From Bacteroidales bacterium (GTDB lineage: Bacteria > Bacteroidota > Bacteroidia > Bacteroidales > P3): DNA of 6,511 nt. The stretch's first letter is position 1. Every line of letters starts with the position of its first letter. Under the pieces are notes generated by a model. That model was not told where the DNA came from. It was given only the letters and a program-made list of their open reading frames with translations, and ran no database searches. Both the position numbers and the translations under genes were made by a program. The stretch spans positions 1 to 6,511 of the forward strand of contig JAEEIS010000089.1 of the NCBI GenBank assembly GCA_016281475.1, read 5' to 3'. This document shows positions 2,745 to 6,507 of this stretch, piece by piece.

Positions 2745-3575
2745 TCAAACAAATAGCTCGCCATTCGCCACAATGCGGCATTTCCCGCCTACGTATATAG
2801 TGCCGTCGGTGCGCAACATAGTCTCAACGACCGAAGGGCGACCCATCTTCTCACCTTGCAGAAAGGAACACTCACTGCCCTGCTGTACCAATCCCCGCCT
2901 CTGCAAATAATGCGTCAACGCCGCATTGGCGGTGCCTGTGGCAGACTCCTCGTCCACTCCATATAGGGGAGCGAAGTTGCGCACATGGGCAGTGTAACCA
3001 TCGTCTGTCTGCACAAAGGCGTGTACCCCTACCACCTCCAACTCACGGCTCAACTCTGCCAAAGCAGCCATATCGGGATTGAGGGCTTCCAATTCTTCCT
3101 GGCTCTGCACAGGCAAGATGATGTCGGGCAATCCCGTTGTAATAATCTCTACAGGCATTGACGGCACAACGCATTGCATGATGCGGCACAGTCGTTCTAC
3201 ATCCTTCACCACCCCTACCATCTTCGGTGTCGCCATCTGCATCATCACCCTTTCGCCCGCCATCACCTCCAGATCGCCCGCCAAGGTATGGTTCAGGCAT
3301 ACCCAATCCCCCACTTTGCCCAACTGCCACAGCAAACCAAAAGTGGCTATCGTGGCATGTCCGCAGAGGTCCACCTCGCTGCGGGGTGTGAAATAGTGCA
3401 CGGTACACTCGTCCGCACCATCCTGGCGGACAAAAGCCGTCTCGGAATAGCGCAACTCAGCCGCCACCTGCTGCATTAGGCTGTCCGCTAGGAAGTCATT
3501 ATCCAACAGCACCACCCCTGCAGGGTTGCCGCCAAAGAGTTTGTCAGTAAAAGCATCAACGATATAGTATTGCAT
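2745..3575 (-). CDS. PhzF family isomerase/epimerase (phenazine biosynthesis-like)
   Basis: The 276 residues span a full two-domain, diaminopimelate-epimerase-like fold. N-terminal marks are VDAFTDKLFGGNPAGVVLL (6-24), ELRYSETAFV with Glu45 at the position of the catalytic glutamate of PhzF, and YFTPRSEVDLCGHATIA (61-77). The second domain has VRNFAPLYGVDEESATGTANAAL (198-220), where classic PhzF has EDPATGS; here Glu210 and Thr215 replace the Asp and Ser of the reference enzyme. The family isomerises small acids by proton transfer. Real phenazine synthesis is not implied: no phz genes are nearby, and most Bacteroidota members have unknown substrates. The protein should be cytosolic, as no signal peptide is visible. 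ATG at 3575 gives a normal-length N-terminus (MQYYIVDAF). The leader contains a large palindrome, and a candidate -7 element lies at 3656-3663, so it may be transcribed apart from the upstream cassette. Confidence 0.92.
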   Translation of the reverse strand: MQYYIVDAFTDKLFGGNPAGVVLLDNDFLADSLMQQVAAELRYSETAFVRQDGADECTVHYFTPRSEVDLCGHATIATFGLLWQLGKVGDWVCLNHTLAGDLEVMAGERVMMQMATPKMVGVVKDVERLCRIMQCVVPSMPVEIITTGLPDIILPVQSQEELEALNPDMAALAELSRELEVVGVHAFVQTDDGYTAHVRNFAPLYGVDEESATGTANAALTHYLQRRGLVQQGSECSFLQGEKMGRPSVVETMLRTDGTIYVGGKCRIVANGELFV

Positions 3576-3582
3576 ATCTTTA

Positions 3583-3619
3583 TTAATTCGTTAATTTGTA
3601 AACGTGTTAATTCGTTAAT
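3583..3619. repeat. Two direct copies of TTAATTCGTTAAT
   Basis: The 13-mer TTAATTCGTTAAT occurs exactly at 3583-3595 and again at 3607-3619, a period of 24 bases. The 13-mer itself has near-palindromic ends (TTAA...TTAA). The second copy lies inside the left arm of the larger palindrome at 3591-3650, so the two structures are interleaved. I have seen similar AT-rich tracts in Bacteroidales intergenic regions, but cannot name a defined repeat family. Confidence 0.6.
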
Positions 3620-3650
3620 CGATTTACACATTAACACGTTCACACATTTA
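3591..3650. repeat. 60-base imperfect palindrome (long hairpin) upstream of the PhzF-like gene
   Basis: The arms 3591-3620 and 3621-3650 are inverted copies matching at 24 of 30 positions, with a perfect 10-base block AACGTGTTAA (3601-3610) against TTAACACGTT (3631-3640) and a central AATCGATT. In the - strand transcript two of the six mismatches become G-U pairs, giving about 26 of 30 paired positions; the + strand RNA would have A-C mismatches there. It lies between the ABC-tail remnant and the PhzF-like start codon. It has no following U-run, so it is not a standard intrinsic terminator. A leader hairpin, a recombination site or a small palindromic repeat element are all possible. Confidence 0.6.
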
Positions 3651-3664: not shown

Positions 3665-3704
3665 AGTATCGGCTATCTTGTCCACGTTCATACTGCTGGG
3701 CAGA
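3665..3704 (-). pseudogene. Remnant of an ABC transporter gene 3' end
   Basis: On the - strand this stretch encodes SMNVDKIADT (3694-3665), the same peptide that ends the ABC exporter at 4696-6507. Over these ten codons only five bases differ, all at third positions and all synonymous (AGT/AGC, ATA/ATT, GCC/GCA, GAT/GAC, ACT/ACG). Similarity continues through a further seven bases (3698-3704 against 4737-4743) after one extra base at 3697, which shifts the frame. After the tenth codon similarity stops and no stop codon matching the ABC gene is kept. An open frame from 3715 runs through it but fits no known protein and reads through the palindrome, so I treat it as a relic, not a gene. Confidence 0.7.
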
Positions 3705-3714
3705 GAAGAGAACA

Positions 3715-3906
3715 TTACCCCATTAAACTCTGAATATCTGCAAGGGCGTATTCCACCCCCGCAGTGTGGAGTGCATCGTAATGGTCAAGGATATAACGGC
3801 TGGCACCAGAACGTTCAAATAAGCTGTATGCCTCTCGTCCTGTCGTACCATGCAGCCGCTTGTATTCTTCAATACAATATATCAAAAACTCCAATTTCAA
3901 ACTCAT
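3715..3906 (-). CDS. DUF3791 domain-containing small protein
   Basis: The 63-residue protein is almost entirely one DUF3791 domain. It starts with LEFLIYCIEEYKRLHG (5-20), has a G-E-x-Y-x-L-F helix (GREAYSLFERSG, 23-34), the YILDHYDALHTAG block (38-50) and ends with YALADIQSLMG. DUF3791 proteins are small helical proteins of unknown function, common in Bacteroidota and Firmicutes and often next to DUF3990 genes. The ATG overlaps the stop codon of the 82-residue gene in ATGA (3906-3903), so it is probably translated by coupling. It is the last gene of the cassette. Its stop lies 11 bases from the ABC-tail remnant. By position and size it could be an antitoxin or immunity partner of the DUF3990 protein; this is inference. 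Confidence 0.85.
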   Translation of the reverse strand: MSLKLEFLIYCIEEYKRLHGTTGREAYSLFERSGASRYILDHYDALHTAGVEYALADIQSLMG

Positions 3907-4151
3907 GCTTCTTCGGGATAAGTTATTCTTCCTGTCGTTTTCTCACTATACCATAACTCGGCCAAAGCCAATGGACTCAAATGCCATAGTTTACTGCTCT
4001 CTCGCTCCAAATCTGCATACAACTGAGAGCAGTACAATTGTCGTATAGCTTCCTCCGCCTCCATACCATATTCTTTAGCCATACGGTCAACAACCTGCGG
4101 TACTATTAACTGCAAAGTGGCAGTGAATTGTATCTGTTCCTGTTCTGTCAT
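3903..4151 (-). CDS. Conserved hypothetical protein of the DUF3990/DUF3791 cassette
   Basis: The 82-residue protein has no domain name I can assign with confidence. The N-terminal half looks helical (IQFTATLQLIVPQVVDRMAKEYG, then EAEEAIRQLYCSQLYADLE). The second half has the motif KLWHLSPLALAELW (54-67) and ends TTGRITYPEE (72-81). This pattern, an S-x-x-Y-x-x-L followed by KLWH-S-P and a terminal TG-YP, resembles small proteins I recall beside DUF3791/DUF3990 genes. Both ends are joined by ATGA overlaps: its start to the DUF3990 stop (4151-4148) and its stop to the DUF3791 start (3906-3903). That makes the gene assignment strong even though the function is unknown. A role as partner or neutraliser of the DUF3990 protein is plausible. 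No signal peptide or membrane segment is seen. Confidence 0.82.
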   Translation of the reverse strand: MTEQEQIQFTATLQLIVPQVVDRMAKEYGMEAEEAIRQLYCSQLYADLERESSKLWHLSPLALAELWYSEKTTGRITYPEEA

Positions 4152-4627
4152 ATTGAGTAGGCTGTTAGATATTTGACAAATGCTAACGACTTCTCACTTT
4201 TAAAAGTCAACTGGTTGTACAAGTCCTTTACCTTCAAGCGCGCAACTGTTTCTTCCTTGGTCAACACACCAGCCTGATATGCAGCAAATGTACGGAACAC
4301 ATCATCATTGGCTACCGGACCGAAAGCAAAATCACACTCTCTCGAAGTAAGACCGTTCCTGTTTGCACTCACGTAGTCAAGCCAATCCTCGTCGGGTGAT
4401 GTGAACCAAACATTCTCAAGCGAACTTCTCATACCCTCTATATCCACCTCATAGACATTGACAATAGCATCGGCAGCATGTAGACGATCCTTCACTTTTC
4501 TGGCAAAATCCACTGCCTGCACCTCGTTCAACGTAGTGTAAAAACCTCGTCCAAAATCCAAGGCACGGTTAGGTTCCACAATGCGTGGTATCTCTATCTT
4601 TCTGTCGCTACCGTGATATACTATCAT
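4148..4627 (-). CDS. DUF3990 protein, predicted ADP-ribosyltransferase-like fold
   Basis: The 159-residue protein matches DUF3990. The start MIVYHGSDRKIEIP gives His5 in YHGS; DFGRGFYTTLNEVQAVDFA (24-42) gives Tyr30 in GFYTT; and the end has YNQLTFKSEKSLAFVKYL (137-154) with Gln139 in a QxxF-S-x-x-x-L pattern. Together these look like the H-Y-(E/Q) core of diphtheria-toxin/PARP-like ADP-ribosyltransferases, the group in which I recall DUF3990 being placed. The third residue is my inference. A glutamine there is seen in some ART families with altered activity, so catalysis on NAD is possible but not shown. It is the first gene of the cassette, 68 bases after the ABC exporter stop on the same strand, and its TGA overlaps the next ATG. 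The ATG at 4627 places the YHGS motif at residue 4, as expected. A target cannot be deduced. Confidence 0.85.
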   Translation of the reverse strand: MIVYHGSDRKIEIPRIVEPNRALDFGRGFYTTLNEVQAVDFARKVKDRLHAADAIVNVYEVDIEGMRSSLENVWFTSPDEDWLDYVSANRNGLTSRECDFAFGPVANDDVFRTFAAYQAGVLTKEETVARLKVKDLYNQLTFKSEKSLAFVKYLTAYSI

Positions 4628-4695
4628 GTCTTTATAACGAAAATTGTTTCATTTTATTGTGGAATCAAATTAAAGATATTGTTTATCAATTTCTT
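4628..4695 (-). promoter_or_regulatory. AT-rich spacer between ABC exporter and DUF3990 cassette; weak promoter candidate
   Basis: This 68-base gap is strongly AT-rich, unlike the flanking ABC gene. Read on the - strand, TATCTTTA (4678-4671) matches seven of eight positions of the Bacteroidota -7 consensus TAnnTTTG, but no -33 TTTG is found at the right distance. No GC-rich hairpin with a U-run is seen, so the cassette might be reached by read-through from the ABC gene or have its own promoter here. The leader directly before the DUF3990 ATG is AT-rich with no Shine-Dalgarno sequence. Confidence 0.25.
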
Positions 4696-6507
4696 TCACC
4701 CCATCGTGTCTGCAATCTTGTCCACGTTCATGCTGCGGGCGGAGGCATCGAAAATCTCTTTGTACAATCCGCCTTGCTGGTACACCTCGGTGGGCGTGCC
4801 GTGCTGCACGGCATGGCCAGTGTCGAGCACATAGAGGGCATCGGAGTCTATTATCTGTCCGATGTTGTGGCTGATAACAATGACCGTCCTCCCCTGTTTG
4901 ATGGCATCAATAGAGGCCTTAATCTGCTCGGTAGCGATGGCATCGAGGCTGGCCGTCGGCTCGTCGAGGAAGATGATGGGAGGATTCTTCAAGAACATAC
5001 GAGCAATGGCTATTCTTTGCTGCTGTCCACCGCTCAGCTGCAGGGCGTTGGACTGAAATCCGTCGGGCAATGCCGCTATCTGGTCGTATATATACGCCTG
5101 TCGTGCCGCCTGCTCCACCTCCTCGCGTGTGGCCGACGGGTTGCCGTAGCGGATATTCTCCTCGATGGTGCCGCTGAAGATATGGTTCTTCTGCAACACC
5201 AACCCAATGTTGTCGCGCAGCACCTGCGTGTCCCATTCTTTCAACGGCACACCATCCAGCGTGATGCTGCCGCTGTCGGGAGAGTAGAACTTATCGAGCA
5301 GATTGACAATCGTCGTCTTGCCCGCGCCACTCAACCCCACCAAAGCGGTCGTCTTGCCGGGTTCGATAGTCATGGTCAAGTCGCGAATGGCATGTGTGCC
5401 GTTGCTGTAGGTAAACTCCACGTCTCTGAGCTCAAAGCAGCCCTTCACCTCTCTGGGTCGGTAATCGCCCGACTCCTCTACCTCGTTGTCCGCCTCCAAG
5501 ATGCCGAAGAAGCCCTCGGCATAGATGAGTGCGTCGTTCAAGTCGTCGTAGATTCGGTGCAGCTGACGTATCGGTGCGCTGACATTGCTGAACAGCAACA
5601 CGTGGTACATAATCTTACCTATGGTCATGCCGGGATAGTCAATCAGCACCAAGTAGGCAGTCAGGATGATAATCAACACCGTGCCTATCTGCTCCACGAA
5701 GGTCTTCAACCCCTCGAAGAGGAAACTGATGCGCCGAGTCGCCATCTGCTGGTCGGTCGAATCGTTCTGCAGCTTTGCCTGCCGCTCGGCCTCTACCTGC
5801 TCACGGTTGAACGACTTGATAACGCCCATGCTCTCAATGATGTTCATGATGCCGTGATTCAACGCCTGATGGGTGCCGAACACACGCCTGCGCCACCCCT
5901 TCATCCGTACCCCCTGTCGGGCAGTGATAAAGAAGTATATCGGTATGATTGCCAGAGCCACCAACCCCACATACACATTGGCGGCAAACATCAGCACCAA
6001 TGCCATCACTGCGCTGGTGAACAACGGCAGGATGTCGATAAAGAAGTTCTTGACCGTATTGCTCAGGCTCATCACCCCTCGGTCAATACGCGTCTGCAGC
6101 TTGCCCGGCTCGTTGCCCTCGTTGCTAAAGAACGCCATGCGAAACTGCAATATGCGGTCCACCACTCGCAGCGACAGGTCTCGGCTCACGTTAATCCGTA
6201 TCTTCTCGCCGAAGATGCGCTGCCCGAAGGTGATAACCGCAGCCAGCACCTCCTTGCCCAACAGTACCGCACTGACGATGAGCAGCAGCCGTGCCGCCTC
6301 ACTCCAATCGAAGCCGCCGCTCTTGTGCATCAAGGCATTGATGGCATCCACCGCACGGTCGAGCACCACGGCGTTCACCTGCGCCATCAACGACCCCACA
6401 AAAGTGAGTATCAGAGTCAATATTAGCAGCCACCTATACGGCAGCACAAAAGGCAGCAACTTCTTCAGCAGCCCGCCTATACCCATTTTCGAAACCGAAT
6501 CATCCAT
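4696..6507 (-). CDS. ABC exporter, fused membrane and ATP-binding domains (MsbA/MdlB-like)
   Basis: This 603-residue half-transporter would act as a dimer in the inner membrane and export an unknown substrate using ATP. Hydrophobic segments lie near 24-47, 72-95, 155-195 (two) and 270-290, as in a type IV exporter membrane domain. The nucleotide-binding domain (~357-590) is complete: Walker A GLSGAGKTT (391-399), Q-loop Gln439, signature LSGGQ (491-495), Walker B IIFLDEP (511-517) with catalytic Glu516, D-loop SLDA and switch His547. No degenerate site is apparent. The tail after GGLYKEIFDASA is SMNVDKIADTMG, which recurs as a remnant at 3665-3704. The start at 6507 is uncertain: only four bases precede it, the frame is open, and a second ATG (residue 8, MGIGGLLKK) is possible. 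Such genes often sit in tandem pairs in Bacteroidota, so a partner could lie beyond 6511. Drug, lipid or peptide export cannot be told apart. Confidence 0.93.
   Translation of the reverse strand: MDDSVSKMGIGGLLKKLLPFVLPYRWLLILTLILTFVGSLMAQVNAVVLDRAVDAINALMHKSGGFDWSEAARLLLIVSAVLLGKEVLAAVITFGQRIFGEKIRINVSRDLSLRVVDRILQFRMAFFSNEGNEPGKLQTRIDRGVMSLSNTVKNFFIDILPLFTSAVMALVLMFAANVYVGLVALAIIPIYFFITARQGVRMKGWRRRVFGTHQALNHGIMNIIESMGVIKSFNREQVEAERQAKLQNDSTDQQMATRRISFLFEGLKTFVEQIGTVLIIILTAYLVLIDYPGMTIGKIMYHVLLFSNVSAPIRQLHRIYDDLNDALIYAEGFFGILEADNEVEESGDYRPREVKGCFELRDVEFTYSNGTHAIRDLTMTIEPGKTTALVGLSGAGKTTIVNLLDKFYSPDSGSITLDGVPLKEWDTQVLRDNIGLVLQKNHIFSGTIEENIRYGNPSATREEVEQAARQAYIYDQIAALPDGFQSNALQLSGGQQQRIAIARMFLKNPPIIFLDEPTASLDAIATEQIKASIDAIKQGRTVIVISHNIGQIIDSDALYVLDTGHAVQHGTPTEVYQQGGLYKEIFDASARSMNVDKIADTMG
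4705..4743 (-). repeat. Right copy of the ABC-tail repeat (inside the ABC exporter gene)
   Basis: This is the living counterpart of the remnant at 3665-3704, offset by exactly 1040 bases. The 16 bases 4716-4731 equal 3676-3691, and the pair agree at 33 of 39 aligned positions with one single-base gap. Both copies lie in the same orientation and enclose the DUF3990/82-aa/DUF3791 cassette with little sequence to spare on either side. Confidence 0.7.

Follow-up and report, generated by a model that had tools for sequence, protein, structure and literature searches.

What is the three-gene group on the reverse strand of this Bacteroidales contig, and how did it come to lie at the 3′ end of an ABC exporter gene? 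The window, by which we mean the whole stretch of 6,511 nucleotides that was analysed, holds a DUF3990 gene (T) followed by two small genes (a and D), and its features are as follows.

4148..4627, minus strand: T gene, DUF3990, 159 aa, a predicted ART-fold toxin (ORF; PF13151, 136 bits)
3903..4151, minus strand: a gene, an 82-aa helical protein, proposed first half of the antitoxin (ORF; PDC-M13B match)
3715..3906, minus strand: D gene, DUF3791, 63 aa, proposed second half of the antitoxin (ORF; PF12668, 73 bits; PDC-M13C match)
4148..4151, minus strand: T/a stop/start overlap, ATGA (read from the sequence)
3903..3906, minus strand: a/D stop/start overlap, ATGA (read from the sequence)
3666..3699: left direct repeat, apparently the displaced 3′ end of the ABC gene, reading SSMNVDKIADTV on the minus strand, 15 nt past the D stop
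4706..4739: right direct repeat, 3′ end of the present ABC gene, protein end SMNVDKIADTMG, 78 nt upstream of T
3700..4705, minus strand: body of the putatively inserted unit between the repeats (GC 0.428; repeat spacing 1040 bp)
4696..6507, minus strand: ABC exporter gene with the cassette in its 3′ end; a host gene, outside the module
2745..3575, minus strand: phzF-like gene; a host gene, outside the module, which directly adjoins the ABC gene at empty sites

The ORFs and the sequence bear out the arrangement described in the initial annotation, three minus-strand genes joined by two ATGA overlaps (4151-4148 and 3906-3903). Its family labels (DUF3990, an 82-aa hypothetical protein and DUF3791) agree with the Pfam scores, T reaching 136 bits for DUF3990 (cut-off 32.2) and D 73 bits for DUF3791 (cut-off 25); no Pfam family was found above cut-off for a. 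The upstream neighbour is the ABC exporter gene; downstream lie phzF, a PRiA4-ORF3-like gene, an O6-methylguanine methyltransferase gene and the tail of a larger gene. The PRiA4-ORF3-like and methyltransferase genes are convergent and overlap by 16 nt (1801-1816). GC content is 0.442 in the cassette, 0.556 in the ABC gene, 0.55 in phzF and 0.461 in the PRiA4 gene. The base counts from which acquisition had been suspected (26 of 60 and 37 of 60) are right, but GC alone is weak evidence of acquisition, because the nearby PRiA4 gene is also low.

An ADP-ribosyltransferase (ART) core with His5, Tyr30 and Gln139 had been proposed for T, with fold prediction as the way to check it. The structure model of T (pLDDT 91.2, pTM 0.84) has an ART fold, and the solved structures nearest to it include the toxins ParT and RES-Xre; the Foldseek search with this model gave no match at E ≤ 0.001. 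Among the aligned T sequences, window included, H5 is conserved in 60/60, Y30 in 60/60 and Q139 in 59/60, and in the model they lie on predicted strands 2-7, 29-32 and 138-142, respectively. Both the predicted fold and these near-invariant residues speak for the proposal: T is predicted to have an ART superfamily fold with an H-Y-[E/D/Q] core, and H5, Y30 and Q139 are its presumed active-site residues. At one locus (L126, 2136-6540), two identical T-a-D copies lie inverted about 2.5 kb apart, which is either an assembly artefact or a real inverted duplication; the T encoded there has K in place of Q139.

When species-representative genomes were scanned, at least 573 relatives were confirmed, and the best 80 loci were kept; being the best-scoring of these relatives, the 80 lean to close kin. 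Profiles of the three families find the order T-a-D on one strand in 78 of the 80. In the other two, L017 and L029, the contig runs out soon after T (79 and 121 nt past it), and among the 78 there are irregular cases: T is broken in L015, a run of N separates a from D in L052, and L060 is a tandem array. Four-base overlaps join T to a in 27 and a to D in 34 of 74 loci, that is, the 80 minus L006, L015, L052 and L060 (irregular) and L017 and L029. Over the same 74 loci, pairwise distances of T, a and D correlate at 0.85-0.87 (calculated without a control), as expected for co-inherited genes.

A T search of 29 whole genomes gave 1-10 matches per genome, some of them fragments. A DUF3791 match adjoins 67 of 76 full-length T genes (match ≥400 nt) on the same strand, 40 downstream and 27 only upstream, and nine have none; the T count leaves out three of the 88 rows listed for T, each the second piece of a broken gene. 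Reciprocally, 76 of the 83 DUF3791 matches in these genomes adjoin a T. The alternative order D-T-a is common among paralogues (14 of 24 T in 20 regions, as we count them, two with a broken or weak D). The neighbourhood search called for in the initial annotation thus revealed a conserved three-gene unit (78/80 loci; 67/76 T), with the small, adjacent, co-directional and co-conserved genes of a type II toxin-antitoxin (TA) module.

The relation between the two partners is less direct. The model of a (pLDDT 93.2) found no fold match in the PDB; its residues 74-82 are without secondary structure, and its conserved C-terminal stretch, YPEEA, likewise has none predicted. Direct profile comparison of window-type a with D gave no significant similarity. 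Intermediates link the two, however. Two of the ten a proteins scanned from D-T-a loci exceed the DUF3791 cut-off of 25 (L111, 31.1 bits; L114, 32.3 bits). These two also match an a profile made from the other D-T-a loci (5e-10 and 5e-6), and that profile matches the a of the window (2.6e-8). With both bridges included, D-T-a-type a scored 86% against all D (E 5e-6), the reversed control giving 0.7%; without them the score was 30% against D-T-a-type D and 0.7% against window-type D.

Natural fusions were also found. In L156, a single 148-aa protein carries a at residues 1-77 and D at 83-148 (DUF3791, 82.9 bits; a profile, 4e-23). In L174, D is fused to the N-terminus of T and a follows, with both DUF3791 (40.3 bits) and DUF3990 (162 bits) above cut-off; the D-T fusion of L173 is nearly identical. 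Furthermore, 32 T loci (within L131-L180) lack two separate a and D genes, and 29 of these have a single downstream partner, which we grouped by eye. For 19 partners of about 150 aa, the C-terminal half matches a (93.7%) and the N-terminal half weakly matches D (19%; 4% against all D). Six partners of about 140-165 aa have an a-like half (68%) and a D-like half (48% over 27 columns). Four partners of about 215 aa, one of them with a C-terminal HTH, are not significant against a or D alone and are linked to the 140-165-aa group at 95.8%. Reversed and T controls of these single-partner comparisons were at most 3.4%. Among the other loci, L161 (1305-2636) encodes a single 443-aa chain that begins with T and has, at its C-terminus, an HTH-like stretch scoring below cut-off, so that this one protein may comprise the entire module; no recognisable partner was seen beside T in L171, and T has a 75-aa neighbour in L180.

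HTH domains are fused to T in L170 (HTH_3, 35.4 bits) and to the partner in L166 (HTH_3, 26.6 bits). Pfam matched no DNA-binding domain or HTH in the a and D of the window, which therefore differ from the DNA-binding antitoxins of type II modules and give no sign of autoregulation. DNA-binding antitoxins are not present in all TA systems. Taken together, a and D look like distant homologues related through intermediates, and they appear fused in nature as a-D and D-T and, less securely, as the halves of single partners. Because of this, and because the PADLOC candidates PDC-M10, PDC-M13 and PDC-M42 look like one superfamily (see below), we read the window as carrying a toxin with a split antitoxin. 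The toxin-antitoxin-like organisation suggested earlier is upheld by the fusions and the HTH-bearing relatives, but the two partners resemble the halves of a single antitoxin more than unrelated parts. Since D is fused to T in two genomes, it may not by itself be the whole antitoxin.

The cassette is thus probably a compact, horizontally inserted TA module made up of an ART-fold, NAD+-using toxin and a split a/D antitoxin. T would be an NAD+-using enzyme with an H-Y-Q active site. The a and D proteins, as distant homologues, would together form one antitoxin, here divided between two genes and co-translated with T. An a:D unit would bind T in a complex and keep it inactive; if the complex were disturbed or the antitoxin lost, T would be freed and could ADP-ribosylate a cellular target or destroy NAD+, so that growth stops. 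This reading is supported by the TA toxins among the nearest structures, H-Y-Q conservation, the adjacency of T and DUF3791, the fusions, the relatives with HTH, the finding of 1-10 matches per genome and, as discussed below, plasmids with a-D but no T and the case of Rhs5. It is weakened by the lack of direct similarity between window-type a and D, of a PDB fold match for a, of a DNA-binding domain and of a Foldseek match at E ≤ 0.001, as well as by the D-T fusion and the T-first order. A toxin gene standing first in the operon is the less usual order in TA modules.

All three proteins match PADLOC models of PDC-M13: T matches M13A at 6.7e-55 and M13B at 1.7e-43, a matches M13B at 5.3e-30, and D matches M13C at 2e-20. 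By HMM match, the three proteins qualify as PDC-M13, a candidate phage-defence system, and the gene set is therefore catalogued rather than new. In a survey of 6530 rumen genomes and MAGs, PDC-M13 accounts for 3324 reports and is named among the more abundant candidate defence systems (PMC13356809). The biochemistry had been called undescribed; the set itself has been catalogued, yet the passages seen of the open-licence PMC papers searched gave no tested mechanism or assay for DUF3990, DUF3791 or PDC-M13 proteins. No paper on PDC-M10 or PDC-M42 was found among open-licence PMC papers.

What would trigger the release of T? A dedicated anti-phage abortive infection system, in which a:D:T senses infection (for example, when a host defence enzyme is inhibited) and then lets T go, would extend the TA module proposed above by a trigger, and we give it a little less than an even chance. 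The PDC-M13 matches favour it, although listing by PADLOC marks a candidate and is not a test. It is also favoured by the placement of the cassette in Moraxella osloensis plasmid pNP7-2 (L181, 4454-8070), where the order is hsdM-T-a-D-hsdS-hsdR with a 4-base overlap at each joint from hsdM to hsdS, a linkage like that of PrrC (PMC2610378). The same order was found in a second Moraxella plasmid, and the visible part of a third has T-a-D and then hsdS. One E. coli plasmid (L207; HsdM 82% identical) was examined out of 1165 records that carry such an HsdM; in it, hsdM and hsdS overlap directly with nothing between them. Against this, the window copy lies among housekeeping-like genes and not in a defence island. 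HsdM, HsdS and HsdR of Moraxella were also used as queries against the other loci; this search, which covered R-M only and which distant R-M types could escape, gave one weak HsdS match (L146), so that the restriction-operon placement appears not to be general.

Two of the seven Moraxella records with a have a and D and no T match. One is pYHS1 (L204, 4001-4452), in which only the last 42 nt of T, up to its stop, align with pNP7-2; the annotation of the stretch displayed has no hsd gene. Finding a-D without T is what one would expect of an antidote that is worth keeping.

The acquisition of the cassette, suspected at first from GC content, is better indicated by an empty site in relatives and a displaced gene end. 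The ABC gene is found (E 1e-100 or better) in 51 of the 99 genomes of the genus of L001, a near relative of the window with the same insertion. In nine of the best 30 ABC loci, phzF directly adjoins the ABC gene, and no match to T, a or D was found there within the roughly 1.5-kb flanks retrieved. Five of these nine cassette-free loci (L082-L086) encode an ABC protein with the end ...SMNVDKIADTVNLN(G/V). In the window it ends ...SMNVDKIADTMG, and past the cassette an open frame still reads SSMNVDKIADTVNLN. The old end of the ABC gene thus seems to have been pushed past the cassette, the new end having arrived with it; this direction is deduced from the place beside phzF, because the ABC protein also ends LG in the cassette-free L081, L089 and L090. 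The two gene ends form direct repeats of 34 bp, 85% identical and 1040 bp apart. Between phzF and the left repeat lies a 28-nt inverted repeat (3593-3648), gapless and with arms that are 82% complementary; L001 has extra sequence near this position.

Flanking repeats were then scored for 76 cassettes (75 loci and the window) and, for comparison, for 216 gene intervals taken from 71 of these loci. The highest score among 158 random controls was 26.8 bits; repeats above it flank 11 of the 76 cassettes and two of the 216 intervals (Fisher 1e-5). Above 39 bits, a line set after the scores had been seen, the counts are nine of 76 and none of 216 (Fisher 4e-6). The cassettes are partly non-independent, as the window and L001 share a single insertion event, L020 lies near L025 on the tree, and L060 is a tandem array. 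At L026 (5803-7105), the cassette lies at the 3′ end of an S9-like gene, presumably that of ribosomal protein S9, and the gene end is repeated downstream of the cassette. Among 16 loci of this genus with an S9-like gene, one is L026 itself and 14 have neither the cassette nor the downstream gene; in L217 (S9 98% identical) a 75% identical copy of the L026 downstream gene comes next, with no cassette. Repeats start 2-3 nt past the upstream stop in L041 (perfect, 48 bp) and L054 (73%).

Direct repeats at a gene 3′ end together with an empty site are what is expected of an att-flanked element, and the cassette appears to have entered the end of the ABC gene as one unit. Alternatively, the repeats could have arisen as a side effect of homologous recombination with a cassette-bearing donor, and not through site-specific insertion, which we consider possible, if somewhat doubtful. 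The unit holds no recombinase, the window and L001 share their insertion and so count as one event, the repeats are only 85% identical, and 65 of the 76 cassettes have no flanking repeat above 26.8 bits. Recombination accounts less well for the recurrence of strong repeats (those above the post hoc 39-bit line being confined to cassettes) and for their position in L026, L041 and L054 at or just past the 3′ end of an unrelated gene.

T was found on 70 of 72,556 plasmid records (36 of the 70 predicted to be conjugative or mobilizable), on six of 50,697 phage records (one phage twice) and at 19 IMG/VR viral-contig loci. Such a distribution, with the flanking repeats that mark mobility at some copies, would suit a module that serves simply for the addiction or stabilisation of mobile elements and has no role in defence. 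We consider this rather unlikely given the chromosomal copies with no mobile genes in view, such as that of the window, and the nesting inside a type I R-M operon.

Less probable again is an arrangement like that of CmdTAC, in which a is the antitoxin and D a chaperone or sensor that stabilises it. CmdTAC also consists of three genes, and its ART is of the HY-[E,D,Q] type (PMC11618068); the YPEEA end of a, for which no secondary structure is predicted, likewise speaks for such an arrangement. By Pfam, however, D is a DUF3791 protein of 63 aa and not SecB-like. That a and D appear to be homologues, and are found elsewhere as one fused protein, suits two halves of one unit better, and D is fused to T in two loci. 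Finally, it is very improbable that T is secreted as an effector, its partners being immunity proteins, instead of acting inside the cell in a TA module: DUF3990 is the C-terminal domain of Serratia Rhs5, whose downstream gene is a predicted immunity protein (PMC4524185), and lies near the C-terminus (residues 754-861) of a 901-aa protein on a viral contig (L201, 2661-5366), but the T of the window begins with this domain at residue 1 and consists of nothing else (159 aa), and no delivery domain was matched in it.

The split TA module that we favour has relatives under other PADLOC names. In L143, T matches PDC-M10A and the partner M10B; in L166, T matches M42A and the partner M42B; in L170, the partner matches M42B, yet T scores best with M13B. 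These matches, the partner comparisons and the fusions lead us to read PDC-M10, PDC-M13 and PDC-M42 as one superfamily, with firm confidence as regards T, good confidence as regards M13 with its fusions, and moderate confidence as regards M10B and M42B. A fuller picture is more tentative. Throughout the superfamily, an H-Y-Q ART toxin would be held by a homologous DUF3791-like domain pair; the two domains may be encoded separately or as one protein in either order, and may also be attached to the toxin or to an HTH. The split form would be an att-flanked cassette of about 1 kb that lacks a recombinase and inserts at gene 3′ ends, including the hsdM/hsdS junction, where it would act as a guard.

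New here are the apparent homology and the fusions of a and D with the superfamily that they suggest, the cassette insertion, and the Moraxella hsdM/hsdS placement with the T-less a-D. Reading the cassette as an ART toxin whose two-domain antitoxin may be split or fused, and joining M10, M13 and M42, gives roles to test, namely which half neutralises and which one senses. Nature already supplies material for this in the D-T and a-D fusions and in the plasmids that keep a-D but lack T. The copies within type I restriction operons allow the guard idea to be tested directly, and the empty site suggests a possible route for the spread of small cassettes that carry no recombinase.

Among known systems, cis-mobilizable elements (CIMEs) are short stretches of DNA between att-like repeats at gene 3′ ends, with no recombinase of their own. 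The cassette similarly lies between repeats at a gene 3′ end and lacks a recombinase; it differs in being about 1 kb long with three genes only, and its excision or mobilisation is putative. CmdTAC, a toxin-antitoxin-chaperone system with an mRNA ADP-ribosyltransferase, shares the three genes and the ART type; in the window, however, Pfam finds no SecB match among the three proteins (E up to 1), a and D have no LAA end, and the partners are DUF3791-like. DarTG, an anti-phage system cited in PMC11833690, has an ART toxin beside its antitoxin, as T lies beside its proposed antitoxin; by Pfam the window has no DarT or macrodomain match. Compared with ParST and RES-Xre, the T of the window is DUF3990 and not RES, and Pfam finds no Xre or DUF2384 in the partners, although distant relatives of the cassette do have HTH. 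The anticodon nuclease PrrC is linked to and silenced by EcoprrI, a type I R-M system (PMC2610378), and the Moraxella cassette copies are placed likewise in a type I R-M operon; PrrC, however, is a tRNA nuclease, and the window copy has no adjoining R-M gene in 6.5 kb. The nearest counterparts are PDC-M10, PDC-M13 and PDC-M42, T, a and D of the window matching the M13 models and the proteins of L143, L166 and L170 the M10 and M42 models; what PADLOC holds as three separate candidates would here be one superfamily with split or fused two-domain antitoxins.
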